From assembly GCF_017726655.1 (NCBI RefSeq), contig NZ_CP072309.1:1236501-1300500 (forward strand): DNA of 64,000 nt. Reading direction: 5' to 3'. Both the position numbers and the translations under genes were made by a program. Source of the DNA: Agrobacterium tumefaciens (GTDB lineage: Bacteria > Pseudomonadota > Alphaproteobacteria > Rhizobiales > Rhizobiaceae). Below are positions 18,490-42,527 of the stretch, piece by piece (position 1 is the first letter of the stretch; the number at the start of each line of letters is the position of its first letter). The notes under the pieces were generated by a model. That model had not been told where the DNA came from and searched no databases. It worked only from the letters and a program-made list of their open reading frames with translations.

Positions 18490-18510
18490 CCGTCTTGCCT
18501 GTCGGAATCC

Positions 18511-19089: not shown

Positions 19090-19095
19090 TGAATG

Positions 19096-20313: not shown

Positions 20314-20334
20314 TGGCCGCTTAAGCGGGCTGCC

Positions 20335-21284: not shown

Positions 21285-21290
21285 CATTCT

Positions 21291-21366: not shown

Positions 21367-21424
21367 CCCGGTTTGGGAACCGGACGAGAGAGGCGGGGCC
21401 TGAAACAGTTTGTTAGCTGGTGGG

Positions 21425-22309: not shown

Positions 22310-22487
22310 TCAGTACCATTTACCATGTCGTAAACTATCAGGAGGTTCATGTTGCCAGTTACGGTGCGGCAAGTCCATACTATCGCCCAAACAGCGCTAT
22401 ACCGATTCACGCGTTCACAGGATATTTACCGTGAAAATCCTATAATCGGGCTAGGGTATTCCAAACATTGAGCAGTTACGGTCACTT

Positions 22488-22853
22488 ATGATGAATCAGA
22501 AAATTCTTCTCGCTGAAGACGACAACGATATGCGCCGCTTCCTCGTGAAAGCGCTGGAAAAAGCCGGTTACAAGGTTTCTTCCTTCGACAATGGCGCCAG
22601 CGCCTATGACCGGCTTCGCGAAGAGCCATTTTCGTTACTGCTGACCGATATCGTGATGCCTGAAATGGATGGCATCGAGCTCGCACGTCGCGCGACCGAA
22701 CTCGATCCTGACCTGAAAGTCATGTTCATCACCGGCTTTGCAGCCGTTGCGCTGAACGCCGATTCGAAGGCTCCGAAGGATGCCAAGGTGCTTTCCAAGC
22801 CGTTCCATCTGCGCGATCTCGTGGATGAGGTGAACAAACTCCTTGTGGCGTAA
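22488..22853 (+). CDS. cpdR: Single-domain response regulator CpdR
   Basis: 121-aa receiver-only protein; the start KILLAEDDNDMRRFLVKALE is close to identical to rhizobial CpdR. Phosphoacceptor Asp54 lies in LLTDIVMPEMDG, with Thr (FITGF) and Lys (LSKPF) at the expected positions. CpdR is an adaptor for ClpXP that, when unphosphorylated, directs cell-cycle proteins for destruction under control of the CckA-ChpT relay. Two ATGs stand in tandem (22488, 22491). A TATAAT at 22441-22446 is the best visible -10 upstream. Confidence 0.93.
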   Translation: MMNQKILLAEDDNDMRRFLVKALEKAGYKVSSFDNGASAYDRLREEPFSLLLTDIVMPEMDGIELARRATELDPDLKVMFITGFAAVALNADSKAPKDAKVLSKPFHLRDLVDEVNKLLVA

Positions 22854-22892
22854 GGCCTCTCAAAAAACCTTCACAAAACCGAAAAAAAGCAG

Positions 22893-22922
22893 TTGACGCA
22901 TGAACCGGTTTTGTGGTCTATC
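22893..22922 (+). promoter_or_regulatory. Promoter of tRNA-Val
   Basis: TTGACG (22893-22898), 18-base spacer, TCTATC (22917-22922), 12 bases before the mature tRNA 5' end. Confidence 0.5.
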
Positions 22923-22934
22923 CGCCGCAACGGA

Positions 22935-23009
<75 letters not shown>

Positions 23010-23028
23010 TCCGAATTCTTTATGTATC

Positions 23029-23059
23029 AAGGCCTTGCGATAAATCGCAGGGCCTTTTT
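23029..23059 (+). terminator. Terminator after tRNA-Val
   Basis: AAGGCCTTGCGA-TAAA-TCGCAGGGCCTT with a T-run, about 20 bases past the tRNA. Confidence 0.85.
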
Positions 23060-23167
23060 GCTTACTGGGCTCGAGCCATGAGTCGAACGGCGCCGCGGTG
23101 GATTGGTAGGCAGTCCTCATCGGGCCAACCTTCTCCATCTCCACCTCTCGCGCCGCGCCGATCCGCC

Positions 23168-25204: not shown

Positions 25205-25249
25205 GGCCTGCTCCAAAGAGAATATTCCGACCGAGGCTAAATGCGAATG

Positions 25250-25282
25250 TACACCTATGTCAATTTACAAAACATATGTGTA
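25250..25282. promoter_or_regulatory. Inverted-repeat operator between demethylase and TetR genes
   Basis: TACACCTATGT (25250-25260) and ACATATGTGTA (25272-25282) are inverse with one mismatch; a further half-copy GGGTGTAC lies at 25297-25304. The site stands in the 141 bases between the divergent genes, as expected for the TetR-family protein. Confidence 0.65.
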
Positions 25283-25345
25283 TAGAGATTTGACGTGGGT
25301 GTACTTTTTCTTGTCGCGCAGAGGCCAGTTTGCTAGAAACCTGTC

Positions 25346-25978
25346 ATGGAAGCGACAATAAACGAAAACGGTTGGCGCGGTTCGCAGGAGGGGTGGCTGG
25401 GCGCCGCCTATCAGGCGTTGCTGGAATCCGGGGTCGACTCCGTGAAAATCCTGCCCCTGGCGAAAAAGCTCAACGTGTCCCGCACAAGCTTTTACTGGTT
25501 CTTTAAGGACCGGGAGGAATTACTGGCTGCGCTCGTCGCCCGCTGGCGGGAGAAAAATACAGGCAGCATCCTCCGGCAGTCGGAGGCCTACGCGGAGACA
25601 CTGGCGGAGGCCATGCTGAATGTGTTCGATTGCTGGCTCGATCCATCGCTGTTTGATAGCCGATTTGAATTTGCGGTAAGAAGCTGGGCTCTTCAATCCG
25701 ACGAAATTCTCGCGGAGGTCCGTAAGGCCGATGAGGCAAGAATGGGGGCACTCTCCCGCATGTTCGTGCGGTTCGGCCACAGCGAAAGCACGGCGGATGT
25801 GCGCGCACGCACCACCTATCTGGTGCAGATCGGCTATATTTCCATGCAATCCGAAGAAGATATCTCGGTACGCATGCAACGAATTCCGGATTATATTGCC
25901 ATCTACACCGGCGAACAGCCGCAGCCGCGCGAGCTTGACCGGTTTCACGCGAGGCACGGCTACAAGCCCGTCAGGTGA
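25346..25978 (+). CDS. TetR-family regulator
   Basis: 210-aa TetR/AcrR-type protein: helix-turn-helix at residues ~15-60 (GVDSVKILPLAKKLNVSRTS, then FYWFFKDREELLAALV) and a ligand-binding C-terminal domain without close recognisable relatives. The gene is divergent from the flavin oxidoreductase gene and very probably regulates it through the palindrome in between. Confidence 0.85.
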   Translation: MEATINENGWRGSQEGWLGAAYQALLESGVDSVKILPLAKKLNVSRTSFYWFFKDREELLAALVARWREKNTGSILRQSEAYAETLAEAMLNVFDCWLDPSLFDSRFEFAVRSWALQSDEILAEVRKADEARMGALSRMFVRFGHSESTADVRARTTYLVQIGYISMQSEEDISVRMQRIPDYIAIYTGEQPQPRELDRFHARHGYKPVR

Positions 25979-26147
25979 TGGGGAAGTCTCAGCGCCTCTG
26001 TTGATTTCCAGGTCTTGCCACACGCTCCGCCATCGGCTTTTGATCGGCATGCGGTAGGATATCGATTGTCTGACGATGATCCTGCAATGTTGCTGTAACA
26101 TTCACGGATGAGTGGAGGGGATGGCATAGTCCATCGGGGAAACGGCA

Positions 26148-26822
26148 TTGCGAATCTTGCTTCTGGAGGATGAACCGGAAATGGCACGCGCGCTTCTGGA
26201 AGCGCTACGCCGCCGCGACGTCCTCGCCGACCATGTCAGCACAATCAGCGATGCGGACGCGTTGGCGAGGGACGGCTCCTATGATGTGCTTGTGCTTGAT
26301 CGCCGTCTTCCTGATGGGGAAGGGCTGAACCTGGTGGCTTCGCTGCGCAAGAGCAGGCAGTCCGTACCGATCCTTGTGCTCACTGCACTCGGCAGTGTCG
26401 ATCATCGTGTCGATGGCCTCGATGCCGGTGCCGACGATTATCTTGCCAAGCCCTTCGCCATCGAAGAATTGCTCGCGCGCCTCAGGGCTCTCCACAGACG
26501 CGGACCCTCGCTGTCTGAAAGATGCGCCCAGTTCGGAAATCTCTGCCTTGATCCGCGCAGCAATGAAGTGAGCATCGGTAACTCCATCATCGAATTGCGG
26601 CGTCGCGAATACCTCGTTCTCGAAGCGCTGATGCGGCGACCGAACCGCATCGTCACGCGGTCGAACCTGATCGACGCGGTCTATACGCTCGATGACGAGA
26701 TCGAGTCCAATGCCCTCGATGCGCATATTTCCCGCATCAGGAAGAAATTGCTGCAGGCTGGGGCCACGGTGGAAATAAGAGCCGTGCGTAATATCGGGTA
26801 TCTCATCCGGTTGAAGGCATGA
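26148..26822 (+). CDS. Two-component response regulator, OmpR/PhoB family
   Basis: 224 aa: receiver domain (residues 1-112; acidic pocket EDE at 7-9, phosphoacceptor Asp51 in VLVLDRRLPDG, Lys in LAKPFA) and a winged-helix DNA-binding domain (~125-222). The start is a TTG at 26148, the only codon that gives the complete beta-1 strand MRILLLEDEPE, preceded by GGGGA. Its stop overlaps the start of the kinase gene by 4 bases. The regulated genes and signal are unknown; QseB/PmrA-like proteins are the closest type. Confidence 0.88.
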   Translation: MRILLLEDEPEMARALLEALRRRDVLADHVSTISDADALARDGSYDVLVLDRRLPDGEGLNLVASLRKSRQSVPILVLTALGSVDHRVDGLDAGADDYLAKPFAIEELLARLRALHRRGPSLSERCAQFGNLCLDPRSNEVSIGNSIIELRRREYLVLEALMRRPNRIVTRSNLIDAVYTLDDEIESNALDAHISRIRKKLLQAGATVEIRAVRNIGYLIRLKA

Positions 26823-28255
26823 AGACGGCGCGCAATCGATCCCTGCGGTGGGGGCTGATGAAGCGGCTTTTCGCGTTACAGGCCTTCCTGCTCATCCTCT
26901 TCGTTATCCTCTTCATCGGTTGGATCTGGATCATCGATCCACGTCTTGAAGGTGCGAATGAAGAGGCCGCCCGGATTGTCGCGGAGAGTGTGACAAAGGA
27001 TGGGCAAGGCAGGCCGCAACTGCCAGCGACGCCTGAACTGACGGAGCTGAAGCGGCGCTATCCAAACCTCTGGTTCGTCGTGCGCGACGCCAACGGCGTC
27101 GTCCTGCAATTCGGCGCTGTCCCGCCACCGGCCCTTTCCGCTATCTTTCCCTGGAGCTTTGATCGTGCGCGTCTGGATGCGGCCGGGACGTTGCGTGCCA
27201 CTGTCGAGAACCGCGATACCGCGGCGGGCCGCCTCCAGTTCATTGCGGGTACTGAGGATGGAATGCCGAATGACGGCCTCAGCATCTGGATCAATGTCCA
27301 GCTGGATCTGGAAAAGGATGCCAATGGCTCGATCCGCTGGTTCAAGGTGCTGCCCGCGCTGGGCTTTATTATTCTCATCGCTGTTGTGCCGATGCTGATT
27401 TTGACGGGTATCGCGACACTGCTGGTGACGCCGAGGGCAGTCGGCCGTTCTCTCGGCGGGCTGATGGATACAGTCAAGCAGGCTGAGTCCATCGATTTCG
27501 ACAACCGGTCAGAGCGGATCGACCGGTCGAAGGTTCCCGTTGAACTCATTCCGCTGGTGGATGCCTTCAACATTGCGCTGTCGCGGCTTGATGACGGCTA
27601 TAACCGCCGTAACCGTTTTCTCGCCGATGCGGCACATGAGCTGAGAACGCCTATTGCGATCGTGCGGACCAGAGCCGATCTTTTGCCGGATAACGCGCTG
27701 AGCCGTCAGATCCGGGCGGATATCGATCGCCTCACCCGCGTTGCGCATCAGCTGCTGGAAATGCAGGCGGTGGGCGCTGTCGAACTGCCGGCGGAGCCGT
27801 GCGATCTCAATCAACTTGTTGAGCGCATCGCGACCGACCTTGCCCCGATTGCGCTGGACGCCGGTTACGATTTCGATTTCGAGCCGAGCGCGGGTCCCGC
27901 CATTTTTACCATGCAGGCGTCGATCATCGAGATGGCGGTCGTCAACCTCGTTCGCAATGCGATCGATCATGCCGGCGGCAAGGGTGCAATCACAATTCGG
28001 ATTGACGCGGCCGGGGCTATCGAGGTCTGTGATGAAGGGCCAGGCATACCCGTTGCGGAGCGCGGTCAGGTCTTCGAGCCCTTTCATCGCATCAACACAA
28101 ATTCGCCGGGCGCAGGCCTTGGGTTAAATCTGGTCCAGAAGGCCGCCGAGCTTCATCGTGGCCGTGTTCTGTTCCTTGATTTGAACCCCGGCTTCTGCGT
28201 TCGGTTGGAAGTCCGTTCGGTCGTTCCAAGAGCGGTCGCGTCCGACAATGGTTAA
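26819..28255 (+). CDS. Two-component sensor histidine kinase
   Basis: 478 aa. Membrane segments at ~17-39 and ~178-202 enclose a periplasmic sensor region of ~135 residues. HAMP-like linker, phosphoacceptor His273 (ADAAHELRTPIA), N box NLVRNAIDHA, G1 DEGPGIP, G2 GAGLGL. ATG overlaps the regulator stop (ATGA), so the two are translated together. The immediate downstream gene is an outer-membrane protein, but a 239-base gap makes co-transcription unsure. Confidence 0.9.
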   Translation: MKTARNRSLRWGLMKRLFALQAFLLILFVILFIGWIWIIDPRLEGANEEAARIVAESVTKDGQGRPQLPATPELTELKRRYPNLWFVVRDANGVVLQFGAVPPPALSAIFPWSFDRARLDAAGTLRATVENRDTAAGRLQFIAGTEDGMPNDGLSIWINVQLDLEKDANGSIRWFKVLPALGFIILIAVVPMLILTGIATLLVTPRAVGRSLGGLMDTVKQAESIDFDNRSERIDRSKVPVELIPLVDAFNIALSRLDDGYNRRNRFLADAAHELRTPIAIVRTRADLLPDNALSRQIRADIDRLTRVAHQLLEMQAVGAVELPAEPCDLNQLVERIATDLAPIALDAGYDFDFEPSAGPAIFTMQASIIEMAVVNLVRNAIDHAGGKGAITIRIDAAGAIEVCDEGPGIPVAERGQVFEPFHRINTNSPGAGLGLNLVQKAAELHRGRVLFLDLNPGFCVRLEVRSVVPRAVASDNG

Positions 28256-28412
28256 GATACAGTTAAATAAAATCCTCTAACTATATTAAATAAATCAATT
28301 ATTTATAGTCAAATTGGTCGCGTGCAATGCAGGCGTAATTCTCGTGGGGAAGATGCCCTTATCTGCTGAGCTCATCGGCATGTCATGCCGATTGGGCGCA
28401 GGAGACGAACGG

Positions 28413-28429
28413 GAACCGGTTTCCGGTTC
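28413..28429. promoter_or_regulatory. Perfect inverted repeat before the porin gene
   Basis: GAACCGG-TTT-CCGGTTC, 66 bases before the omp start, in a gap (28256-28494) that is otherwise AT-rich in its first 60 bases. It may be an operator or an mRNA leader hairpin. Confidence 0.4.
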
Positions 28430-28494
28430 TTCAACGCGAACTGAAACCTTGCGGGCGCCAGGCCTTGGCGCAGCGGTTTCGTCTGGAGCCATTC

Positions 28495-29121
28495 ATGTCG
28501 ATCATCAAGAAATCACTTGCCGCCGTCATTATTGCCGTCGCGGTCGCGGGTAACGCTTATTCCGCCGATCTCACCAACTACAATCAGCAATCCTTCAACT
28601 ACGGCAATCAGCCGGCTTTCTCATGGAGCGGGGCCTATGTCGGTGCCCATGGCGGTGTCGCCTCTCCGAAGTTCAGTCCACTGGCCAGCGGCCGTGGCCT
28701 GACGGGTGGCGTTCAGGCGGGGTACAATTTCCAGTTCGGCTCCGGTGTCGTCGGTGCAGAAGTGGAAGGCTCCTATCTCGGAAACGATGCCCGTGTGCCG
28801 AACGGCCGGTTGCGCGAGCGTTTCCGGGGTGCGGCCAAACTGAAGGCAGGTGTGGCTCTGGATCAAACGCTTCTTTATGGAACCGCGGGCCTGACCACCA
28901 CAAGGTTCAAGGATGGTAACGGTGTGACCGGGCCTGATCGGTGGAAACAGGGCTACCTCCTGGGTGCAGGTGTAGAGCAGAGTTTCGGCGGCGGTCTTTC
29001 GGCAAAGTTCGAGTATAATTATGTGAATACGGGAGATGTGGCGACGACCACGGCGAGTGGCAGGTCGAAGACCGATATCAGCGATCACGTCTTCAAGGCC
29101 GGCGTGAACTATCGCTTCTGA
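28495..29121 (+). CDS. Outer membrane beta-barrel protein, Omp25/RopB-like
   Basis: 208 aa. Signal peptide residues 1-24 (MSIIKKSLAAVIIAVAVAGN, cleavage after AYSA), then alternating strands of an eight-stranded barrel (SWSGAYVGAHGG, GVQAGYNFQFGSG, GAEVEGSYLG, AGLTTTRFKDG, AKFEYNYVNTGD) and terminal phenylalanine (VNYRF), the outer-membrane assembly signal. Typical of the Omp25/Omp31 family abundant in Rhizobiales. An in-frame extension upstream of ATG 28495 would spoil the signal peptide. Confidence 0.88.
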   Translation: MSIIKKSLAAVIIAVAVAGNAYSADLTNYNQQSFNYGNQPAFSWSGAYVGAHGGVASPKFSPLASGRGLTGGVQAGYNFQFGSGVVGAEVEGSYLGNDARVPNGRLRERFRGAAKLKAGVALDQTLLYGTAGLTTTRFKDGNGVTGPDRWKQGYLLGAGVEQSFGGGLSAKFEYNYVNTGDVATTTASGRSKTDISDHVFKAGVNYRF

Positions 29122-29235
29122 TCGGCTCAAAAATGAAGGCGAACAGGGAGACGGAAAGCCGCCGCTTTCAACGCGGAAGCGGTGGCCGACCAACGGGAAT
29201 TATGCCGCAAGCGGCGGCCTGAAAGTCGTAAACAC

Positions 29236-29625
29236 TCACTCGCATTCTAGAGATGGCTGCCTGAAGTCCGTGACATACCAGTCGCTGCCTGAGCTGCGGG
29301 TGTAGAACGTGTAAAAACAATCAATGCGCTCTACATAGCCGGGCGTTTCGGAGACTTCATACCGCTCGCCCTGACTCGTTGTGCGCATTTCGCCGTTCGA
29401 GGATCCGGGAAAGACCTGTGTCTTGTTTTTTCGCCATTGGTAGGCCTGCTGGCCCGGGCCAAGGCTGTAGATGTTGTCCGGCGGTCCATAATCCAGCATC
29501 ACATTGGTGATGGGCGCGCCGATGTAACTCTTCATGGTCGTCGAGGCGCAGGCGGTAAGCAGCGCGGATGCGCTGGCGACGGCCAATATTGCAGACCGGA
29601 TGGTTACTGACGATCGCTTGGTCAT
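29236..29625 (-). CDS. Small lipoprotein of unknown function
   Basis: 129 aa. Basic N-terminus, hydrophobic core and lipobox L-T-A-C (residues ~23-26) mark a lipoprotein exported by Sec. The mature part contains GAPITNVMLDYGPPDNIYSL and YQWRKNK, weakly like SmpA/BamE-type small lipoproteins but without clear membership. Start at 29625; upstream in-frame residues would block the signal peptide. Confidence 0.72.
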   Translation of the reverse strand: MTKRSSVTIRSAILAVASASALLTACASTTMKSYIGAPITNVMLDYGPPDNIYSLGPGQQAYQWRKNKTQVFPGSSNGEMRTTSQGERYEVSETPGYVERIDCFYTFYTRSSGSDWYVTDFRQPSLECE

Positions 29626-29757
29626 GGGATTCCTTTCATCCGCGTAAGGTTTCGCAAGAATAGGAATCCGCCATTGCAGAAACATTGCATGCCCTGGGCC
29701 TGGAGAGCTCTGGCTTGCTGGTTCCGCCTCCAGCGATTGAGCGCCCTGACGCCGCTC

Positions 29758-30189
29758 TCAGAGACCGGCGATATTCAGGCCGATATGGCGCAGGATGCTC
29801 TTGAAAAGCTTCACCTCGGCCGGGTCGAGGCCCTCGATCGCGGTTTTTTCAAACATGGCCGCGATAGGCATGAGCTCGTCGGCAAGTTCCTCGCCTTTTG
29901 TTGTCAGGGTGATACGCACGATGCGGGCGTTGTCGGCCGGCCGCTCGCGGCTGACGAGATTGCGCCGCACCATCAGCCCTACCAGTCGCGACAAGGTGGA
30001 AATTTCCACCGACACCATGTCCGAAAGCTCGGTCAGCGTTTTGCTTTCCTGTTGTCGGAGCGTCGCCAGCACGCGGTACATGGGCAGCGTGATGCCGTAG
30101 GACGTCAGTCTCACGGAAAAACGCTCGCCCAGTCGAACGCCCACCCAGTTGAGCAGGTAGGGTACCGAGTCGGTGAACTGATAAGACAC
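29758..30189 (-). CDS. graR: MarR-family regulator of resorcylate catabolism
   Basis: MarR-type winged helix protein (LTELSDMVSVEISTLSRLVG recognition region, then wing RRNLVSRERPADNARIVRIT). The GTG at 30189 gives 143 aa, the usual MarR length, and has AGGGA 8 bases upstream; an ATG at 30261 would add 24 unconserved residues. The gene is divergent from graD. A palindrome that recurs only before graD and before graK is its probable operator, so GraR is expected to repress the cluster until gamma-resorcylate or a related aromatic binds. Confidence 0.82.
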   Translation of the reverse strand: MSYQFTDSVPYLLNWVGVRLGERFSVRLTSYGITLPMYRVLATLRQQESKTLTELSDMVSVEISTLSRLVGLMVRRNLVSRERPADNARIVRITLTTKGEELADELMPIAAMFEKTAIEGLDPAEVKLFKSILRHIGLNIAGL

Positions 30190-32241: not shown

Positions 32242-33225
32242 ATGCAAGGCAAGGTCGCTCTCGAGGAGCATTTCGCAATCCCGGAAACACTTCAGGATTC
32301 GGCCGGTTTCGTCCCCGGCGACTACTGGAAGGAACTACAGCACCGCCTGCTCGACATTCAGGATACGCGCCTGAAGCTGATGGATGCGCATGGCATCGAG
32401 ACCATGATCCTGTCGCTGAATGCCCCGGCGGTGCAGGCCATTCCCGACAAGAACAAGGCGATCGAGATCGCACGTCGCGCCAATGACGTGCTTGCGGAAG
32501 AATGCGCCAAGCGGCCAGATCGCTTCCTCGCCTTCGCCGCCCTGCCTTTGCAGGACCCCGATGCGGCGACGCAGGAATTGCAGCGCTGCGTCAACGATCT
32601 TGGTTTCGTCGGCGCGCTCGTCAACGGTTTCAGCCAGGAGGGGGATGGCCAGACCCCGCTTTATTACGACCTGCCGCAATATCGTCCCTTCTGGGGCGAG
32701 GTCGAGAAGCTCGACGTGCCTTTCTACCTGCATCCGCGCAACCCGCTGCCGCAGGATTCACGCATCTATGACGGCCATCCCTGGCTGCTCGGCCCCACCT
32801 GGGCCTTTGCACAGGAAACGGCTGTCCATGCGCTCCGCCTCATGGCATCAGGCCTGTTCGATGAACATCCGCGTCTCAACATCATTCTCGGCCATATGGG
32901 CGAGGGCCTGCCCTACATGATGTGGCGTATCGACCATCGGAATGCCTGGGTGAAGCTGCCGCCGCGTTACCCGGCTAAGCGCCGTTTCGTGGATTACTTC
33001 AACGAAAATTTCCACATTACCACATCGGGCAATTTCCGTACCCAGACGCTGATCGATGCCATTCTGGAAATCGGTGCCGATCGCATTCTGTTCTCCACCG
33101 ATTGGCCCTTCGAGAATATCGACCATGCCTCCGACTGGTTCCACGCGACGAGTATCGCGGAGGCGGATCGAGTGAAGATCGGTCGTACCAATGCGCGCCG
33201 CCTGTTCAAGCTCGACGCGGCCTGA
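32242..33225 (+). CDS. graF: Gamma-resorcylate (2,6-dihydroxybenzoate) decarboxylase
   Basis: 327 aa, exactly the length of known gamma-resorcylate decarboxylases. Amidohydrolase-superfamily enzyme that removes CO2 from 2,6-dihydroxybenzoate without oxygen, giving resorcinol. Metal ligands are at canonical places: Glu8 and His10 (VALEEHF), His164 (FYLHPRNP), Asp287 (FSTDWPF), plus active-site His218 (LGHMGEG). It feeds GraDA. Confidence 0.95.
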   Translation: MQGKVALEEHFAIPETLQDSAGFVPGDYWKELQHRLLDIQDTRLKLMDAHGIETMILSLNAPAVQAIPDKNKAIEIARRANDVLAEECAKRPDRFLAFAALPLQDPDAATQELQRCVNDLGFVGALVNGFSQEGDGQTPLYYDLPQYRPFWGEVEKLDVPFYLHPRNPLPQDSRIYDGHPWLLGPTWAFAQETAVHALRLMASGLFDEHPRLNIILGHMGEGLPYMMWRIDHRNAWVKLPPRYPAKRRFVDYFNENFHITTSGNFRTQTLIDAILEIGADRILFSTDWPFENIDHASDWFHATSIAEADRVKIGRTNARRLFKLDAA

Positions 33226-33228
33226 GCC

Positions 33229-34284
33229 ATGGAGCCGTTCGTCTACACGGCCGCACCTGCCCGCATCGTTTTCGGGGCGGGCAGCCTGGCGGATGTGGTG
33301 CAGGAGATCAGCCGTCTCGGCCTCACGCGAGCGTTGGTGCTTTCCACACCACAGCAAAAAGGAGACGCCGAGGCGCTTTCCGCCCGTCTCGGCCCATTTG
33401 CTGCTGGGGTCTTTTCCAATGCGACCATGCATACGCCGGTCGCGGTGACGAGGGATGCGGTCGATGCCTATCGCGCTGCGGGTGCGGATTGCGTTGTGGC
33501 GTTGGGAGGCGGTTCCACCACCGGTCTCGGCAAGGCCGTTGCGCTACGAACGAAAGCGGCGCAGATCGTGATCCCGACCACCTATGCCGGTTCCGAGGTG
33601 ACGCCCATTCTTGGCCAGACGGAAAACGGCGTGAAAACCACTATACGCGGGCCGGAAATCCTGCCGGAAGTGGTGATCTATGATGCTGAACTCACACTTG
33701 GATTGCCGGTCTCGATCAGCATGACGAGTGGTCTCAACGCCATGGCACATGCGGCGGAAGCGCTTTATGCTCGGGATCGTAACCCCATTGCCAGCCTGAT
33801 GGCGGTGGACGGGCTGCGGGCAATGATCGATGCGCTTCCGGTCATTCGGGAAGCGCCGCACGATATCGACGCGCGCGAGACGGCACTTTATGGCGCTTGG
33901 CTTTGCGGCACGGTGCTGGGTGCGGTCGGCATGTCGTTGCATCACAAGCTTTGCCACACGCTCGGCGGTAGTCTCGATCTGCCGCACGCGGAAACGCATG
34001 CGGTGCTTCTGCCACATACCATCGCCTATGTGGAGGAAGCCGCGCCGGATCTGCTCGCGCCATTGGCTGCACTGGTTGGCGGCCGGGCCGGACCGGGGCT
34101 TTACGATTTTGCCGCGCGGCTCGGCGCGCCTTCAAGCCTGGCGGCCCTTGGCGTTGGGGCTGACGATCTCGACCCCATGGCCGAGCTTGCGACGGCCAAT
34201 CCTTACTGGTGCCCGCGGGCGATTGAAAAAAACGCGATCCGGGACCTGCTGCAGCGCGCCTTCGAGGGCTCGCGGCCGGACTGA
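33229..34284 (+). CDS. graC: Maleylacetate reductase
   Basis: 351-aa iron-type alcohol dehydrogenase family enzyme, reducing maleylacetate to 3-oxoadipate with NAD(P)H. The nucleotide site is GGGSTTGLGKA (~89-99), then PTTYAGSEVTPILGQTE, the maleylacetate-reductase block; later HHKLCHTLGG. Starts 3 bases after graF. Its product enters the 3-oxoadipate pathway, whose genes are not in this window. Confidence 0.93.
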   Translation: MEPFVYTAAPARIVFGAGSLADVVQEISRLGLTRALVLSTPQQKGDAEALSARLGPFAAGVFSNATMHTPVAVTRDAVDAYRAAGADCVVALGGGSTTGLGKAVALRTKAAQIVIPTTYAGSEVTPILGQTENGVKTTIRGPEILPEVVIYDAELTLGLPVSISMTSGLNAMAHAAEALYARDRNPIASLMAVDGLRAMIDALPVIREAPHDIDARETALYGAWLCGTVLGAVGMSLHHKLCHTLGGSLDLPHAETHAVLLPHTIAYVEEAAPDLLAPLAALVGGRAGPGLYDFAARLGAPSSLAALGVGADDLDPMAELATANPYWCPRAIEKNAIRDLLQRAFEGSRPD

Positions 34285-34296
34285 TGGGAGGAAATT

Positions 34297-35187
34297 ATGG
34301 ATATGAAGATGACCAGCGACGACGGCTATTTCGTCGAGGAACGCTCCGCGGAAACCGTGATTGCCCGCATGCGCGATTGTGACGATCCGCGGCTCAAGGA
34401 GATCATGGCGGTCGTGACCCGCAAGCTGCATGAGGCGGTGAAGGAAATCGAGCCGACCGAGGAGGAGTGGATGAAGGCCATTCATTTCCTTACCGAAGTG
34501 GGCCAGATCTGTAACGAGTGGCGGCAGGAATGGATCCTGTTTTCCGATATTCTCGGTGTTTCCATGCTGGTCGATGCCATCAACCACCGCAAGCCGAGCG
34601 GCGCATCCGAATCCACCGTTCTTGGTCCCTTCCATGTGGCCGATGCGCCGGAAATGCCGATGGGTGCCAATATCTGTCTTGACGGTAAGGGCGAGGATAT
34701 GGTCGTCGCCGGCCGCATTCTCGATACCGAAGGCGCGCCGGTCGCGGGCGCGCGCATCGATGTCTGGCAGGCCAATGACGAGGGCTTTTATGACGTGCAG
34801 CAAAAGGGTATCCAGCCCGATTTCAACCTGCGCGGCGTCTTTGTTACCGGCGAAGACGGGCGATACTGGTTCCGGGCGACGAAACCCAAATATTACCCGA
34901 TACCGGATGACGGCCCGGTGGGGCGGCTGTTGCGGGCGATGGGGCGGCATCCGTACCGCCCGGCGCATCTGCACTACATCGTTTCGGCCGAGAGCTTCAC
35001 GACGCTCGTCACCCATATTTTCGATCCGGACGATCCTTACATTCGCTCCGATGCGGTATTTGGCGTGAAGGAAAGCCTGCTGGCGAATTTCGAGCGGGTC
35101 GAGGATCGGGAGAAGGCACGGGAGTTGGGTTTTGTCGGTGACTGGTTCTGGTCCGTGAACCACGATTTCGTGCTTGCCCATGAGTGA
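34297..35187 (+). CDS. graB: Hydroxyquinol 1,2-dioxygenase
   Basis: 296-aa intradiol ring-cleavage dioxygenase with Fe(III), opening hydroxyquinol to maleylacetate. The N-terminal helical linker domain (residues ~25-105) is followed by the catalytic domain with the four iron ligands Tyr165 (GFYDVQ), Tyr200 (YYPIPDDGPVG), His224 and His226 (PAHLHY). Preceded by GGGAGGAAATT; graE starts within its last codons. Confidence 0.94.
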   Translation: MDMKMTSDDGYFVEERSAETVIARMRDCDDPRLKEIMAVVTRKLHEAVKEIEPTEEEWMKAIHFLTEVGQICNEWRQEWILFSDILGVSMLVDAINHRKPSGASESTVLGPFHVADAPEMPMGANICLDGKGEDMVVAGRILDTEGAPVAGARIDVWQANDEGFYDVQQKGIQPDFNLRGVFVTGEDGRYWFRATKPKYYPIPDDGPVGRLLRAMGRHPYRPAHLHYIVSAESFTTLVTHIFDPDDPYIRSDAVFGVKESLLANFERVEDREKARELGFVGDWFWSVNHDFVLAHE

Positions 35188-35518
35188 ACGGAGCAATCTA
35201 CCGAAGCTTTACGTGCGCTTTGCCGAAAGCGATGCCGGCGCCGCTGAGCAGCGGGCGGCGCAGATGGAGGCGCACAAGGCCCATTTGCGCAATGGTGAAG
35301 GGAAGCCAGAAGGGTTTCGTATCCTGGCGTCCGGGCCGATGAGCGCTGGTGACGGTGGTCCGCCCGCGGCGCTCGTCATCGCCGAGGCGCATTCTCTCGA
35401 GGACGTTATCGCCTTCAGCGACGCCGATCCCTTCGTTGTTCACGGGGTCTATAATCGCATTCGCATTTTGAACTGGACGCCGACGCTGTCAACGATTTCC
35501 GGGCTGGAATCCCGCTGA
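35180..35518 (+). CDS. graE: YCII-domain protein of the gra operon
   Basis: 112-aa protein of the YCII/dimeric alpha-beta barrel type (AQMEAHKAHLRNGEG, RILASGPMSAGDGG, FSDADPFVVHGVYNRI). The ATG at 35180 overlaps the graB stop by 8 bases. The function is unproven; relatives of muconolactone-isomerase fold suggest a role in handling a pathway intermediate. Its place as GraE is from gene order. Confidence 0.8.
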   Translation: MSERSNLPKLYVRFAESDAGAAEQRAAQMEAHKAHLRNGEGKPEGFRILASGPMSAGDGGPPAALVIAEAHSLEDVIAFSDADPFVVHGVYNRIRILNWTPTLSTISGLESR

Positions 35519-35557
35519 TTTCAGCCGTCGCCAGGCGACCGGCATTTATCAATATTT

Positions 35558-35578
35558 CATTTGCAATTTTTGCAAATG
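35558..35578. promoter_or_regulatory. GraR-type operator before graK
   Basis: Perfect palindrome CATTTGCAA-TTT-TTGCAAATG, 160 bases before graK. It shares CATTTGCA...TGCAAATG with the site before graD, arguing that one MarR protein controls both the enzyme operon and the transporter. Confidence 0.75.
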
Positions 35579-35738
35579 CAACATTTAATCGACAGTGAGT
35601 GATATCGGCGACGTGTGGCTTGACAGGAGCAGGGCACATATCAGGGTGGAGCCTGCCGGGCACTCAAGCAGGATAATGCAGGGACGGGGAGACGCTAATC
35701 CGTACCGGATGGCGCGTTCATGCGTGAAAGGGAGGAAT

Positions 35739-37025
35739 ATGTCCGCGAATTATCTGAGCGCCGCTTCCGTGCGGACGAAGAACCCGGCCGGCGTCATCGC
35801 GACATGCGGCCTCATGATCATGTTCGACGGCTACGATCTGGTCGTTTATGGCGCGGTCGCACCGGCGCTGCTGAAAGAAGGCGCCTGGGCGCTTAACCCG
35901 GCCATGGTCGGGCGCGCGGCCGCCCTGACGCTGGTCGGCATGCTGCTCGGCGCACTGTTTGCCGGCACCATGGCCGATCGCATCGGCCGGCGGAAGGTGG
36001 TGCTTCTCAGCCTCGCCGGTTTTTCGGCGATGATGATTGCCTCGGCCATGACGCCGAATTTTTTGGCCTTCGAAATCACCCGATTCTTCGCTGGTCTTGG
36101 CCTCGGCGCATTGTTACCGACGGTGACCGCGCTGGTGCTGGAATTTTCACCGCCGCAGCGCAGGGCGCAGGCCAATTCCCTGTCCTTCCTGGGTTACCTT
36201 ATCGGCGGCATCATTTCCGGCGTCATGGGCATGCTGCTTCTGGAAAGTTATGGCTGGCGACCGTTGATGCTGATCGGCGGCCTGCCGCTGATCCTGCTGC
36301 CGATCTTCATGCGGTTCCTGCCGGAATCGCCGGAGTGGCTGGCGAGTAAAGGCCGGCAGGCGGAGGCTGACGGCATCTGCGACAGTTATGGTCTGCAACG
36401 CATCGTGCCGCACGCAAAAATGCAGAAGGGTGGCGTCGTTTCGTTGTTCTCGGAAGGCAGACTGGCCTCGACGCTGAATGCATGGGGGATTCACTTCTGC
36501 TCGCTGCTGCTCACCTTCGGCATGGTCAACTGGCTGCCCACCATCATGAACAAGATGGGTTATGACATCAGCTCGGCGCTCAGCTTCGCCGTCATGCTCA
36601 ATGTCGGTGCCGCAATCGGCATCCTTATTGGCGGACGTTTTGCAGACAAGGGCAACGTCAAGGTGGTGGTGGCGATCCTGTTTGCCATCGGCGCTGCATC
36701 GATCTTCGCCCTGACTGTCAACAAGGGTCCGCTTCTTTATGCCCTCGTCGCCCTTGCGGGTGCCGGCACCATCGGAACCCAGATACTGGCCAATGTCCTG
36801 GTCGGGCGGCTTTATCCTGTCCATATTCGCGGCACGGGTCTCGGCTTCTCGCTGGCGGTCGGGCGGCTTGGCGGGATTGCCGGACCGATGATCGGCGGGC
36901 TGGTGTTGCAAAGGGGGCTGGCGCCGGAGTGGAATTTCTACATTTTCGGCTCGGTCGCGCTCGTCGGGTTGATGCTCACCGTTTTGACCCTGCTTTACCG
37001 CACGTCCGGCGACGCGCAGGCTTGA
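35739..37025 (+). CDS. graK: MFS transporter for aromatic acid (AAHS family)
   Basis: 428 aa, twelve membrane segments. The aromatic acid:H+ symporter signature is clear: MIMFDGYDLVVYGAVAPAL in TM1 (the D-G-Y-D motif) and GTMADRIGRRKVV in the loop between TM2 and TM3. Likely imports gamma-resorcylate. Start ATG 35739 with GGGAGG 5 bases upstream; the in-frame stretch back to 35595 is leader sequence. Confidence 0.9.
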   Translation: MSANYLSAASVRTKNPAGVIATCGLMIMFDGYDLVVYGAVAPALLKEGAWALNPAMVGRAAALTLVGMLLGALFAGTMADRIGRRKVVLLSLAGFSAMMIASAMTPNFLAFEITRFFAGLGLGALLPTVTALVLEFSPPQRRAQANSLSFLGYLIGGIISGVMGMLLLESYGWRPLMLIGGLPLILLPIFMRFLPESPEWLASKGRQAEADGICDSYGLQRIVPHAKMQKGGVVSLFSEGRLASTLNAWGIHFCSLLLTFGMVNWLPTIMNKMGYDISSALSFAVMLNVGAAIGILIGGRFADKGNVKVVVAILFAIGAASIFALTVNKGPLLYALVALAGAGTIGTQILANVLVGRLYPVHIRGTGLGFSLAVGRLGGIAGPMIGGLVLQRGLAPEWNFYIFGSVALVGLMLTVLTLLYRTSGDAQA

Positions 37026-37071: not shown

Positions 37072-38400
37072 TCATCCCCGACGGGACACCGGCGCGATCG
37101 TCGCCATCTGCTGTAATGTCCGCTCATTGGTCCGTTTCAAGCGTGCCAACGCGTCGTCGCGATCTTCCGGCAGCGTGTAGGTCATATAGGACAGCGAGGT
37201 CTCGAGGTCGTTATTGTTATGGCCGAGGATAGCGGCGAAATAGCTGTTCTTGGTGACGTGCGGCGGCGCGAAATTGTGATAGGCGACTTCCGCATAGAGG
37301 TGTCTGAGACCATAGGGCTTGGGAAGCTCTTCCTTTGGCCAGATATCCTCGAAGAGGTTAAAAACCGTGTCGCGCAGCAGCAGGCGTGTTTCTGACGAAA
37401 AATCGTCGATCGACATGCCATACCACAATTTTCCCTGCCCGCTTTCACGCAGGCGCTTATACGCTGCCAGAATGGTTTCCGATCGGGCAAGCACCGGAAT
37501 TTCGTACGTCACCCCGAATTTCGTCCCCTCGCCTTGCTTCGTCTTCGCCTGACCGTTGAAGAGAATGCTCCATTTCGAAACACCCTTGCCATAGGGGGCA
37601 GGTGAAAATTCCGCCTGAGTGAAGACCTCATACGGGCGGCGCCCTGTCATGCCGATCAGGCCGATGCCGATCATCAGGGGATCGGCCGACAGGAGTTTAT
37701 CGGCGCAAATCTTTAGAACCTGCTCGTAGTTCTCGAAGGTGATCAGCGCGCCGTGTTTTCTGGCGATCTTCTCCATCTTGACCCGGCGTGCCTCGTCATA
37801 CATCGCGGCATCACCGGTGGCGATCTTGAGCATCGGATGGTCGTCGCCGAAGGCTTCGCGGATCGCGTTCCTATATTTGGTGATGTAGGAAATGATCGTC
37901 GTTTGCGCTCGGCCCTTCATCATCGCGATTTCGGCGTCCCACAAGGCCTGCATGTCCTGCTTCGCGCCCATGCCATTCATCGCGGCAATGAAATCGGCGA
38001 TGCGAAGGAGAACAGTGGGTTTGCGGCCGGCAGTGTTGAATTCCGCCCGCTCGATTTTTTCGACAATCGATGTCGCCACGCCGGTCTTTGGGTAATCGCC
38101 GCGGGCGATGTAGGTGTTCAACCGCTCCCGCAGCTTCTTCATGTTGCAGATGGCAAGCGGGGTGCTCTTCGGGCCGAACTCGGCCTTCAGCGCATTGCGA
38201 TATTTCATGATGTAAAGTTCGAGTGTCTTTTCCGTGCGACCATTGTCGAAATGATAGCGGACTTCGGCATCCCAGAGATCGCGGATTTTCCTGTTTCGCG
38301 AAGCGTCGTCACTTTTCATCGCCTTTTTGACCTGGCAGACGAATTGATCGATGCGTTCCACGAGGACCGGGGTTTTTGTTTTTCGTTTTGCGGCGAGCAT
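37072..38400 (-). CDS. telA: Protelomerase (telomere resolvase) TelA
   Basis: 442-aa tyrosine-recombinase relative that cuts the replicated telomere junction of the linear chromosome and reseals each side as a covalently closed hairpin. Starting at the ATG at 38400 (MLAAKRKTKTPV) the length equals Agrobacterium TelA, and active-site residues fall at the known places: Arg255 (MTGRRPYEVF), Lys286 (GQAKTKQGEG), Arg366 (YGLRHLYAE), His394 (ILGHNNND) and nucleophile Tyr405 (TSLSYMTYTL). Tyr201, Asp202 and Arg205 (AMYDEAR), implicated in DNA refolding, are also there. N-terminal and muzzle-like helices hold two related blocks (LYIMKYRNALKAEFG, ISYITKYRNAIREAFG). An upstream in-frame ATG at 38439 is less likely. 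A general phage integrase is excluded by these features. Confidence 0.96.
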   Translation of the reverse strand: MLAAKRKTKTPVLVERIDQFVCQVKKAMKSDDASRNRKIRDLWDAEVRYHFDNGRTEKTLELYIMKYRNALKAEFGPKSTPLAICNMKKLRERLNTYIARGDYPKTGVATSIVEKIERAEFNTAGRKPTVLLRIADFIAAMNGMGAKQDMQALWDAEIAMMKGRAQTTIISYITKYRNAIREAFGDDHPMLKIATGDAAMYDEARRVKMEKIARKHGALITFENYEQVLKICADKLLSADPLMIGIGLIGMTGRRPYEVFTQAEFSPAPYGKGVSKWSILFNGQAKTKQGEGTKFGVTYEIPVLARSETILAAYKRLRESGQGKLWYGMSIDDFSSETRLLLRDTVFNLFEDIWPKEELPKPYGLRHLYAEVAYHNFAPPHVTKNSYFAAILGHNNNDLETSLSYMTYTLPEDRDDALARLKRTNERTLQQMATIAPVSRRG

Positions 38401-38559: not shown

Positions 38560-39930
38560 TTATTTCGCCAGCCTGGTTTTCAGCGAGGTGACGATGCGTT
38601 TGGCAAGCGCCTCGTAATCCTCGTCGAAATGGTGCCCGCCTTCGATGCCGATGGTTTCGACACCCTTTGCCTTGAGGCCGGGGCACGGGTCTTCATCCTC
38701 TTCCTCGGTGCCATAAACGCATTGCACCAGCTTGGGATCGATCTTGGCGATGTCATCGACGGTCTTGCCGCCTTTGCCTTCGCCAGCCACGCCCAGCCAT
38801 CCCTGAACGGAGATTTCGAAATCCACTTCGTTGGAAAGGCCGAGCAGCGAAAGCTGGGCAACGGAAGATTTCACCCGGTCGGGCAGGAGGTTGTAGGTGG
38901 CGGGAATGATGTCGGCGCCGAAGGAGTAACCGATCAGCACGACATTGCGAACTTTCCATTCCTTGCGATAGGTCTCAATAATGCGGGCGAGGTCACTCGC
39001 CACTTCCTTCGGTTCTTTCTCCTTCCAGAAATACCTGAGAGCATCGACGCCGATGACCGGCACGCCTTGTTTCTGAAGGGCGCTGCCGACTTCCTCGTCC
39101 AGGTCGCGCCAGCCGCCATCGCCCGAATAGATCACGGCCATGGTATCCATCACAGGTTTCGCTTCCAGAACGGTGATTGGAAGCCCGAGCGGGTTGTCGC
39201 TGTCTCCGGCCGCATCGACCTTGTCGGAAAGGGTCTGGGTCAGCACCTCGTCCGCTTTGTCGGTAACGTCTGTGACGTCGATGTCGGAATGCAGTTTTAC
39301 AAGCGCGTTGACGTGGTCGCGCCCTTTCTGGTCGGCGTCAGGGGTGAAGATGACGCTGACCGGTGCCGGAAGCGGACCATCTGTGAGGCCATAGACGGTT
39401 TCACCATCCACCTTGTCCTTGGTTGCCGGGGTGCAGAGAATTTTTTCCAGGGGCAGGCCCGCCTTCGGGTCCACCGCCACCGCCTCGCGGACGGTGGAAA
39501 CCGGGCTTTGCGCGATCATGGCGAGCGCAAGCGTGCCGCCCTTGCCGATGCCCGTGACGATCGGCTGGCGATAACTGCCTGTGCCGGCGGTACGCTGGAT
39601 CTGCTGCGACAGCGATTCGATGTCCGAGATCATGTAGATGCACTCGTCATCATCGGCCTCCAGCGCCTTAAGATATTCCTTGAAGTCGATACCGACGACG
39701 GCGGCGCCTTTTTCGACGAGCGCCTTGGCGCGGGTCTCGTCGGCATCCGTCCAGCCATTGGCATCGGAGATCAGGAAGATGCTGGCCTGAATATCCCCAT
39801 CGGGCACCATCATGTGGTCGGCCGGGATCATGCCCGTTTCGTAAGCCGGCTTATCCTGGGAAAAGGCGGCCGACGAGGAGAGTAACGTCGAGGCGGCAAT
39901 GAATGCCCCTATCAGGTTGCGTTTCATCAT
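38560..39930 (-). CDS. acvB: Lysyl-phosphatidylglycerol hydrolase, virulence protein AcvB
   Basis: 456-aa periplasmic protein with signal peptide (residues 1-24, ending AAFS). It hydrolyses lysyl-phosphatidylglycerol made by LpiA; loss of acvB in A. tumefaciens raises that lipid and abolishes virulence. Two VirJ-like halves are visible: the N-terminal half has a degenerate GIGKGG elbow, the C-terminal half the intact serine elbow GYSFGA with Ser336, plus GGHHFDED providing the histidine. The start overlaps the lpiA stop by 4 bases. Telomere resolvase gene telA follows 160 bases downstream in the same orientation. Confidence 0.95.
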   Translation of the reverse strand: MMKRNLIGAFIAASTLLSSSAAFSQDKPAYETGMIPADHMMVPDGDIQASIFLISDANGWTDADETRAKALVEKGAAVVGIDFKEYLKALEADDDECIYMISDIESLSQQIQRTAGTGSYRQPIVTGIGKGGTLALAMIAQSPVSTVREAVAVDPKAGLPLEKILCTPATKDKVDGETVYGLTDGPLPAPVSVIFTPDADQKGRDHVNALVKLHSDIDVTDVTDKADEVLTQTLSDKVDAAGDSDNPLGLPITVLEAKPVMDTMAVIYSGDGGWRDLDEEVGSALQKQGVPVIGVDALRYFWKEKEPKEVASDLARIIETYRKEWKVRNVVLIGYSFGADIIPATYNLLPDRVKSSVAQLSLLGLSNEVDFEISVQGWLGVAGEGKGGKTVDDIAKIDPKLVQCVYGTEEEDEDPCPGLKAKGVETIGIEGGHHFDEDYEALAKRIVTSLKTRLAK

Positions 39931-42527
39931 TTGCCGATCACTCCTCTGACGCCGCCGCTAATCAGAACCGTCGCATCCATCAGCGCCAGAGCGGCGTCTG
40001 CGCCATTCTGCACGGCAAGGTAACGCGGTTCCCATTTCGGGTGGAACTTTGCCTTGAAGGCGCGAAGTCCCTTGAAGTTGTAGAAACGTTCGCCGTGTTC
40101 GAACAGCGTGCTGCCGATACGGTCCCAGACGGGTGCGGCATCACGCTTCGACATGCCGGACATCGGCGCCATGCCGAGGTTGAAGCTCTGGTAGCCCGTT
40201 TCCTTGAGATGCTGCATGATGCTGACGAACAGGAAGTCCATCGCGCCGCGCGGCGCGTCGGGCGCAAACCGCATGAGATCGATGGTCGCTTCCTTTTTGG
40301 TGTCCGTCACCATGAGATTGGCGAAAGCGGTGATCTTGCCGTCCTTGCGCAAGACCGCGACCGGCTGCGAAAGAATGTAGGCGGGTTCGAAAGCACCGAG
40401 CGAGAAGCGTTTCTCGCGGGTATTGTGATGCTCAAGCCAGCCGTCCGACACCTGCTTCAGATCATCGAGAACGGTCGGAACATCGGCCTTTTCGATCAAT
40501 TCGAAGCTCAACCCGTCGCGTGCGCCACGGCTCAGAGACTGGCGAAGTGTCGCGAGCTTGCCGCCTTTAAGCTCGAACGTGGTGAGATCGACAAGGGCGA
40601 GCTCCCCAAGCTTGAAGGCGCGCAGGCCCGCATCGGCACAATGGGACAGAAGCGAAGGCGATATTTGATAGAAGGCCGCACGGGCGCCGGCTCCGCGGGC
40701 AGATTCCACGAATTGCCAGACGAGATCGGGGAAATCCTCCTCGTCACCGACAGGATCGGCAAAGGCGATCCACGAGCGGCCCTGAATGCCGTACATGATG
40801 AAGGCATTGCCGGTCTCCGAAAACATCACATGCTTGTCGCCCATGCGCACCAGATTGGCGTCCGCGGCGTCCTGCGTCATGACGATCTCCGTCGCCTTGG
40901 CAATATCGTCCGCCTCGACGGCATCCGGGCGGAAACGGACCGGGCGCATGAGGCTAAAAATGGCGATGGTCGAGGAGGCAAGGACGAGGCCGAGAAGGGC
41001 GCGCAAGCCGCGCGGCGCTTCTTCCGAAAACTCGAATTCCCACCACAGCGTGTGGCTGTAATCCGTATCGCGGTACACGAAAAGCAGAATGGTTGCCGCG
41101 CCCGCAATGATCACCATCATCGCGGCGATCCAGCTTGGACCGAGCGCCTGTTTTACCAGCGAGGCGTGACGGTTGAAGCTACGCATGTTGAAGGCGAGTG
41201 CCACGATGAAGAGGCCGAGGAAGATCGCTTCAAAGACAGCGATGGCCTTAAGTATCGAGAGGATAAGGGCGAGGGAGGCCGCAACCAGTGCGATCCACCA
41301 CGCGCCGTCCAGTCTCTGCCCGAGGCCGCGGGAGGCGACGACGAGGCCGAGGCCGAGAATGCTCGTCAGGAAGTGTGCGCCTTCGATGATGGGCAATGGC
41401 ACGAAATTCGAGAGGAAATCGAGATTGCTGTCCGGCGTCGGCGTCACGCTCGAAAAGATCAGCATGGTGCCGAGAATGAGGGCGAAGGTGGAAAGCAGCG
41501 GTGGAGCGAGCCTGACGGCAAGCTGGCTGATATCCGACACAACGGGTTTGGCCGCGAACTGTTTCGTCTCGGAAACGATCATGACCAGAATCGCGACCAC
41601 CAGCGGCAGCACATGGTAAATCACGCGGTAAAGAACGAGGCTTCCGAGCAGCTGATCGACGCTGATGGCATTGCCGAGCCCCGCCACCATGACGGTTTCG
41701 AAAACACCGAGGCCTGCGGGCACATGGCTGAGAACGCCGAGACCGACGGCAGTGGCGTAAATGGCGAAGAAGGTCGGCCAGCCGAGATGGGTTTCCGGCA
41801 AAAGCACATAGAGCACGGAGGCTGAAGCGGCGATGTCAAACGCGGAGACAAGAAATTGCTGTGACGAGGTGCGGCTATCGGGCAGGCGCAGCCGCCACTT
41901 TCCGAGCTTGATGACCTTGCCGTTGCGTCCGATATAGGCCGTGGTCACGAGCACGGCGATGATCGCGAGCGAAACGCCACGCAGAACGGCCGGATCGACG
42001 TTGATAATCGAGGCGATGCGCGGCGCGACGATGAAGGTGGAGATCGCGCTGACCGAGAGCAGCCCGAGGCCGAAAGAAAGCGTGACGAAAGCGATGACAC
42101 GGGCGATATCACCCGGCGAAAGACCGAGTCGGGAATAGGCGCGAAAGCGGATGGCGCCGCCGCTCAGCGGACCGAAGCCGGCCGTATTGCCGATGGCATA
42201 GGCCGCGAAGGCCGTGACCGCCATCGATGGAAAACGGACTTTCTTGCCGACATATTCGATGGCATTCGCATCGTAGAAGATCAGTGCGACGAAGCTTAGT
42301 GCGGTAAAGACGATTGCCAGCAGGACGGCGGAAAACGACGTGCCAAGAAGAGCAGCGATGACATCGTCATATCGTACTTCCGATGTGAGACGGTAAATCG
42401 CAAACGTCATCATCACAAAGATGAGCGTTATGGCGATGGCCGTCAGATAGGGCCGGTTTCTGGCGAAAAAGCTTTCAACCGGGGATTCTGTAATATCCGT
42501 CTCTATAACTTCGCTCTTGTCTGCCAT
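39927..42527 (-). CDS. lpiA: Lysylphosphatidylglycerol synthetase/flippase LpiA (MprF-like)
   Basis: 866-aa inner-membrane enzyme. The N-terminal ~520 residues contain about 14 hydrophobic helices (flippase part). The C-terminal ~300 residues form the cytoplasmic aminoacyl-transferase domain that moves lysine from Lys-tRNA to phosphatidylglycerol (blocks DKHVMFSETGNAFIMYGIQG, REKRFSLGAFEPAYIL, LMRFAPDAPRGAMDFLFV). The change in membrane charge helps resist acid and cationic peptides; in rhizobia lpiA is acid-induced. Operon with acvB, an enzyme that undoes its product. The 277 bases upstream hold no other gene and presumably the promoter. Confidence 0.95.
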   Translation of the reverse strand: MADKSEVIETDITESPVESFFARNRPYLTAIAITLIFVMMTFAIYRLTSEVRYDDVIAALLGTSFSAVLLAIVFTALSFVALIFYDANAIEYVGKKVRFPSMAVTAFAAYAIGNTAGFGPLSGGAIRFRAYSRLGLSPGDIARVIAFVTLSFGLGLLSVSAISTFIVAPRIASIINVDPAVLRGVSLAIIAVLVTTAYIGRNGKVIKLGKWRLRLPDSRTSSQQFLVSAFDIAASASVLYVLLPETHLGWPTFFAIYATAVGLGVLSHVPAGLGVFETVMVAGLGNAISVDQLLGSLVLYRVIYHVLPLVVAILVMIVSETKQFAAKPVVSDISQLAVRLAPPLLSTFALILGTMLIFSSVTPTPDSNLDFLSNFVPLPIIEGAHFLTSILGLGLVVASRGLGQRLDGAWWIALVAASLALILSILKAIAVFEAIFLGLFIVALAFNMRSFNRHASLVKQALGPSWIAAMMVIIAGAATILLFVYRDTDYSHTLWWEFEFSEEAPRGLRALLGLVLASSTIAIFSLMRPVRFRPDAVEADDIAKATEIVMTQDAADANLVRMGDKHVMFSETGNAFIMYGIQGRSWIAFADPVGDEEDFPDLVWQFVESARGAGARAAFYQISPSLLSHCADAGLRAFKLGELALVDLTTFELKGGKLATLRQSLSRGARDGLSFELIEKADVPTVLDDLKQVSDGWLEHHNTREKRFSLGAFEPAYILSQPVAVLRKDGKITAFANLMVTDTKKEATIDLMRFAPDAPRGAMDFLFVSIMQHLKETGYQSFNLGMAPMSGMSKRDAAPVWDRIGSTLFEHGERFYNFKGLRAFKAKFHPKWEPRYLAVQNGADAALALMDATVLISGGVRGVIGK

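Follow-up and report, generated by a model that had tools for sequence, protein, structure and literature searches.

The stretch of DNA analyzed here, hereafter the window, comprises 64,000 nucleotides and corresponds to positions 1,236,501-1,300,500 of C2, one of the two contigs of the present genome (C1, 2,913,790 bases; C2, 2,168,919 bases). It hosts telA, the gene of the TelA protelomerase (hairpin telomere resolvase), at 37,072-38,400 on the minus strand, where an intact frame of 442 aa runs from ATG to stop; the plus-strand reading of the same positions contains 4 stops. An alternative ATG at 38,439 lies in frame and would extend the protein to 455 aa and, since the same upstream stretch is found in G007, which we take to be a C58-like genome, the sequence alone does not decide between the two starts. 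The crystallized protein (PDB 4dwp) and the NCBIfam TelA model both have the 442-aa start. An earlier sequence-only reading of this DNA had recognized a complete gene matching Agrobacterium TelA, which the comparisons bear out: 423 of 442 residues are identical to G007 TelA, the alignment with 4dwp, the crystallized C58 protelomerase, is full length at 962.7 bits and 95.7% identity, and the NCBIfam TelA equivalog NF052462 is matched with 871.2 bits (cut-off 800) over residues 1-435 of the 436-position model. The Pfam telomere resolvase catalytic domain (PF16684) is present. ResT of Borrelia shares this domain family and is matched (structure 8vs5, E 5.6e-08), although the catalytic half alone aligns, and host and telomeres differ. 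A position closer to ordinary integrases, which the sequence-only reading would have taken as counter-evidence, was not found, the best PDB matches being protelomerases; the TelA tree, built without integrases, groups the protein with G007 and L010 (100/98) deep inside the biovar-1 Agrobacterium clade.

All catalytic and DNA-refolding residues named by the sequence-only reading are in place, as seen in the alignment to G007 TelA, with which Tyr201, Asp202, Arg205, Arg255, Lys286, Tyr363, Arg366, His394, and Tyr405 are shared. Across 26 relatives these residues are invariant except for Asp202 (25 of 26). The 19 residues differing from G007 are the same 19 as in the 4dwp alignment and include 226, 233, 235, 237, and 239 as well as 305, 310, and 327, in agreement with the differences noticed beforehand around 222-240 and 305-327. 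Each of the 19 positions is variable among the 26 relatives, with 13 of the present residues occurring in at least one of them and six (22, 26, 160, 226, 327, 441) in none. The dN/dS against G007 (~0.028/0.463 = 0.06) indicates purifying selection on telA. With 55.7% GC compared with 59.3% for the window, the gene falls at the 6.5th percentile of same-length windows; the base composition, described before as normal, is slightly low and within the non-extreme range. No match of TelA to phage records was found. None of nine neighbors scanned against PHROGs fell into a structural or lysis category, which agrees with the earlier observation of a surrounding free of prophage genes; three of the nine (MFS transporter, TetR-like regulator, response regulator) match families mostly of unknown function. 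In summary, TelA is an ordinary, vertically inherited biovar-1 Agrobacterium protelomerase, an enzyme already known.

The sequence-only reading had confined protelomerases to a few phages, Borrelia, and Agrobacterium, which is outdated considering the annotated proteins on plasmids of Shinella, Xanthobacter, Paracoccus, Phaeobacter, and others. In our searches, plasmid-encoded members of the protelomerase family with 25-35% identity appeared in Agrobacterium, Shinella, Rhizobium, Xanthobacter, Paracoccus, and Phaeobacter, and a plasmid of the cyanobacterium Leptolyngbya carries a match annotated as "hypothetical protein" near the record start. Protelomerases are also described on linear plasmids of Rhizobiaceae in PMC13293297. 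Within the genus, ten extra fragmentary TelA-like matches of 33-47% identity lie on two small contigs of one assembly (G013:C6 and G013:C7) and may stem from a second protelomerase, degenerate or divergent, of the kind found on linear plasmids. Rhizobium sp. RM (L021, ~10001-11317) carries a TelA that is 80% identical and forms the longest branch of its clade; there, telA alone matches the window and acvB-lpiA do not.

The genes around telA belong to two different settings. From 1,083 to 23,018, the window is chromid DNA collinear with G007:C2 999,998-977,951, holding cpdR (22,488-22,853, plus strand; NCBIfam CpdR 198.7 bits, cut-off 180) and, as the final gene on this side, tRNA-Val (GAC) at 22,935-23,009 on the plus strand. 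A left junction follows at 23,019-23,146, where the chromid match stops (23,018-23,020) and the chromosome match starts (23,147-23,168). Everything from 23,147 to 64,000 is part of a 43.6-kb block (C2:1,259,647-1,303,222) that is chromosomal in relatives and extends ~2.7 kb beyond the window end. It opens with a gene of the NADH:flavin oxidoreductase family (23,168-25,216, minus strand; Pfam PF00724) and contains telA, an adjoining AcvB-type VirJ-domain gene, which we take to be acvB (38,560-39,930, minus strand; Pfam PF06057), lpiA/mprF for a lysylphosphatidylglycerol synthetase-flippase (39,927-42,527, minus strand; NCBIfam NF033480 913 bits, cut-off 600) and, towards the far end, rutA (62,520-63,611, plus strand; NCBIfam TIGR03612 700 bits, cut-off 498). 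The earlier list of neighbors (cpdR, tRNA-Val, lpiA-acvB) was correct with regard to their presence, but not in placing them in one chromosomal setting, as the junction separates cpdR and tRNA-Val, which belong to the chromid DNA, from lpiA-acvB in the moved block. Beside telA, at 32,242-37,025, an aromatic-degradation cluster was recorded (maleylacetate-reductase-like dehydrogenase, intradiol dioxygenase, aromatic-acid MFS transporter), with names that are approximate and curated cut-offs unreached.

Extension of the analysis to replicon level showed how unusual this location is. A search of both contigs gave a single RepC match, at C2:1,091,222, which is 50.3% along C2 and ~182 kb away from telA. 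Among 39 Agrobacterium-genus genomes, the present one included, RepC was detected in all 39 and TelA in 38, with G025 as the sole genome lacking a TelA match. PMC13293297 names A. divergens as the species that lacks a linear chromid. Replicon placement was evaluated in the 13 of the other 37 TelA-positive genomes that are assembled in nine contigs or fewer, leaving out 24 more fragmented ones. In all ten biovar-1-like assemblies of this set, defined by a TelA identity of 80% or more (G006, G007, G013, G016, G023, G026, G027, G028, G033, G035), telA is located on C1 and a 429-aa RepC on another contig, and in all three rubi-like assemblies (TelA ~70%; G008, G010, G038) telA and RepC share one contig. 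The present genome is biovar-1-like by sequence, yet both genes lie on C2, so the separation of telA and chromid RepC onto different replicons that characterizes biovar 1 is absent from it. For biovar-1 strains such as C58 and H13-3, telA is placed on the circular chromosome in PMC13293297, and because the resolvase is encoded there, a chromid of this type relies on the other replicon for its ends. The present genome is an exception to this location. The earlier supposition of a telA that probably belongs to the main chromosome and serves another replicon in trans is not borne out, as telA lies on the RepC-bearing C2, within a block that relatives carry on their chromosome. The literature searched, mostly papers outside subscription, yielded no report of a chromid-borne telA in biovar 1.

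Alignment of 464 kb of C2 with 400 kb of G007:C1 delimited the block as one collinear, inverted segment, 85-90% identical per piece, between C2:1,259,647-1,303,222 and G007:C1:2,512,253-2,465,842. The other long matches between these stretches are one of 2.7 kb at C2 1,112,636 beside a masked region and several of ~0.65 kb at 68-71%. At the left junction, DNA queries across the edge switch from chromid to chromosome in all three complete biovar-1 relatives compared (G007, G027, G033). At the right junction, in the same three, the C1 match reaches C2:1,303,222-1,303,226 and the C2 match sets in at 1,303,263-1,303,275. The far edge of the block is joined to the pntAB side in ten of ten drafts checked (G001, G003, G005, G011, G012, G014, G015, G017, G020, G034); the stretch joined there lies on C1 in the present genome and starts with pntB. 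At the near edge, the match ends at C2 1,259,664-667 in five of five drafts, never continuing into the present chromid flank. The chromosomal neighbor on this side varies: tRNA-fMet adjoins the block in G007 but not in the five drafts, in whose 20-kb stretches no tRNA was detected beside the left edge and other DNA lies there. As the edges in relatives join the chromosome, the chromid location of the block is peculiar to the present genome among those examined. The rubi-like G010 is no test of the biovar-1 order because its block-edge stretches are scattered over both contigs. A plasmid search for a second example of the left junction with window positions 18,000-30,000 returned 148 records, none covering 80% of the query. 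In addition, an intergenic repeat of ~90 bp was observed at the boundary of block and pntAB side in G007 (C1 ~2,465,690-2,465,787), with many copies in the present genome and none at its junctions.

The former chromosomal site has been refilled. Collinearity of C1 with G007:C1 breaks off at a masked stretch and tRNA-fMet (C1 ~2,432,180) and resumes at pntB (C1:2,541,959); in between, ~110 kb (C1:2,432,181-2,541,958) are without a match of at least 1.5 kb to G007:C1 2,294,001-2,694,000. The insertion starts with a serine recombinase gene in pieces, its Resolvase and Recombinase domains lying on separate ORFs, and parts of its far end resemble the third contig of G007 (71-78%). A mobile element may reasonably be suspected at the tRNA-fMet site. 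An SMC-like ORF of 1,144 aa was also noted in or near this stretch. We refer to the masked position as rrn based on the masked stretch itself, its conserved flank, and the adjacent tRNA-Met; Rfam returned no rRNA gene match in the present genome, probably because stretches are masked as N. For fused Agrobacterium chromosomes, PMC12153318 reports a 77-kb ICE-like insertion beside the fusion junction of an rrn locus with trnfM. On the chromid, the interval between the two junction points measures ~84 kb in G007, 101 kb in G027, and 114 kb in G033, and 20 kb sampled from this interval in G007 gave few matches elsewhere; considering its differing size and these few matches, the interval represents a variable region. 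The comparison does not show a reciprocal swap with this variable region, the C1 stretch matching G007:C2 880,001-1,000,000 only weakly (65-80%, ~0.4-1.2 kb). Shared repeats at the breakpoints were limited to a longest word of 11 bp, leaving out pairs homologous by descent, and no sequence common to them accounts for the move. As a conjecture, the block may have moved by an exchange linked to the insertion-prone tRNA-fMet site.

Since a telomere-like pattern guessed beforehand proved unproductive, the telomere was read from the chromid ends of relatives instead. Both chromid ends of G007 start with TGATATTGTTATT, and the palindrome AATAACAATATCATGATATTGTTATT is read through at both ends of G028 and, in G033 and G010, fully at one end and partly at one end each; in G008, one chromid end shows it with one mismatch per telomere half. 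According to PMC11271964, the central TCATGA is the wild-type sequence between the scissile phosphates. In a search of 15 genomes, exact half-sites were confined to the last ~100 bases at chromid ends of G007, G028, G033, and G010, and none was found in the other 11, the present genome included. Matching palindromic telomere sites, which the sequence-only reading had proposed to look for, were not recovered here: the search gave no exact half-site in either contig and no terminal palindrome at the C2 ends. Exact half-sites are, however, missing from seven of the ten biovar-1-like assemblies (G006, G013, G016, G023, G026, G027, G035), so that such absence is common. Four relatives, with TelA proteins 96, 95, 91, and 69% identical to the present one, have the same 13-bp half-site. 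The proposal that the substitutions could affect telomere preference finds no backing in these half-sites, and altered specificity is unlikely because relatives down to 69% TelA identity share the same one.

The ends of C2 were compared with the terminal 20-kb stretches of other chromids. A block of 1,062 bp (86%) is shared with the right end of G035, one of 4.1 kb (84%) with the right end of G033, and one of 5.3 kb (83%) with the left end of G016; further blocks, of 113-717 bp, are shared between the C2 ends and G028, G035, and G033. None of four internal control stretches shared blocks with chromid terminal regions. The end blocks are partly short, mixed in left and right, and variable in their distance from the end, as in fast-changing subtelomeres. 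Because the ends share terminal blocks with other chromids and RepC is central, C2 is probably a linear chromid whose last bases are unassembled. The host with a linear chromosome claimed by the sequence-only reading stands in the form of a chromid of the linear kind, its linearity drawn from the shared end blocks and the central RepC, and the absence of any linear replicon, which would have spoken against that claim, is not what these ends suggest.

Taken together, we consider it highly probable that the enzyme is a normal TelA and that the 43.6-kb chromosomal block carrying its gene moved into the linear chromid, which now carries its own end-making enzyme. The telA gene, its contig, both junctions, and the refilled chromosomal site were read directly from the assembly; we infer a correct assembly, a linear C2, and a move that is recent in comparison with the relatives sampled. 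The reading of a moved block concerns one assembly of one strain. The block, which starts with the NADH:flavin oxidoreductase gene, includes telA-acvB-lpiA and rutA, and stops just short of pntB, would have been transferred from chromosome to chromid and, because it sits there, the linear replicon would hold its own end-making enzyme. Replication of the linear chromid through its hairpins would give a fused palindromic telomere, which a TelA dimer would cut via Tyr405 at sites six bases apart; Tyr201 and Arg205 would refold the overhangs, and resealing by TelA would leave two hairpins. This chemistry, namely Tyr405 cleavage six base pairs apart, Tyr201/Arg205 refolding, and hairpin resealing, is described for C58 TelA in PMC3558466 and PMC10686437, and because of the sequence identity it very likely applies to the present TelA. 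With roughly even chances, telA-acvB-lpiA may have changed replicon more than once, residing on the chromid in rubi, on the chromosome in biovar 1, and on the chromid again here, with the tRNA-fMet site by rrn maybe used.

Other explanations have to be weighed against this move. If the assembly were chimeric, the block would truly be chromosomal next to pntB and TelA would act in trans, in line with the chromosomal arrangement in all biovar-1-like relatives examined, the present arrangement being known from the assembly alone. We regard such a chimera as unlikely: it needs several misjoins, all of them in intergenic DNA that is not repeated elsewhere. The 7-kb stretch at the C1 edge has itself as sole match in the genome, the right junction stretch has no second match at the joint, and the left one is without other copies among the matches listed. 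Moreover, the chromosomal place of the block is filled by other DNA, and the assembly consists of only two contigs. Likewise, C2 might be circularized or telomere-less in this strain, with TelA as a leftover, as the missing exact half-site and terminal palindrome would allow. Blocks shared with linear chromid ends, the central RepC, purifying selection at a dN/dS of ~0.06, and the frequency of half-site absence (seven of ten biovar-1-like assemblies) all speak against this, and we hold it to be highly improbable; the dN/dS spans the whole divergence from G007, so a recent loss would be invisible in it.

The chromid location could also be ancestral as in the rubi clade, kept here and lost in other biovar-1 lineages. 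Such retention would accord with telA on the RepC contig in three of three rubi-like assemblies with nine contigs or fewer, and with the telA-acvB-lpiA block and some genes beyond shared by 12 of 12 rubi-like loci. The present telA, however, lies deep inside biovar 1, its gene order is that of the biovar-1 chromosome, flanked on either side by chromid DNA, and retention would call for repeated parallel relocations to one and the same chromosomal position; this makes it scarcely credible. We give just as little credence to a changed telomere preference of the present TelA through its substitutions. Five of the 19 cluster at 226-239, six of the 19 residues are unseen in 26 relatives, and the present telomere is unassembled, but the named catalytic and DNA-refolding residues are unchanged and half-sites are the same across relatives down to 69% TelA identity.

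In comparison with known systems, the move of the block from chromosome to chromid results in an arrangement of its own. TelA of A. tumefaciens/fabrum C58 (Atu_2523; 4dwp) has the same catalytic and refolding residues and the same expected telomere at 95.7% identity, but its gene is on the circular chromosome according to PMC13293297, in contrast to the chromid contig here. According to the same source, the protelomerase genes of the A. rubi sub-clade and of A. larrymoorei reside on the linear chromid, and they have acvB-lpiA as neighbors, as in the present genome; their TelA is ~70% identical and the surrounding block different, making ours a separate arrangement within biovar 1. Linear plasmids of Rhizobiaceae, again in PMC13293297, also encode their resolvase on the linear replicon itself, but they are small with distinct proteins, and the present two-contig genome is without such a plasmid contig. 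The chromosome-chromid fusions of natural Agrobacterium isolates (PMC12153318) are likewise exchanges between the two large replicons, with the junction at an rrn locus with trnfM and the ICE-like insertion alongside. Here, the replicons are separate, one block is relocated, and neither chromid junction is at an rrn locus.

The enzyme and chromid-borne protelomerases being already known, the useful part of this finding is the change of replicon. If true, it would link the move of telA to the kind of site that features in chromosome fusions (PMC12153318), and it would caution against using the location of telA as a marker of the circular chromosome. Furthermore, a linear chromid would have its replication genes and its telomere enzyme together on one replicon, providing a natural experiment on the need for a resolvase supply from the main chromosome. 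The dependence of the chromid on another replicon for its ends would not be fixed.
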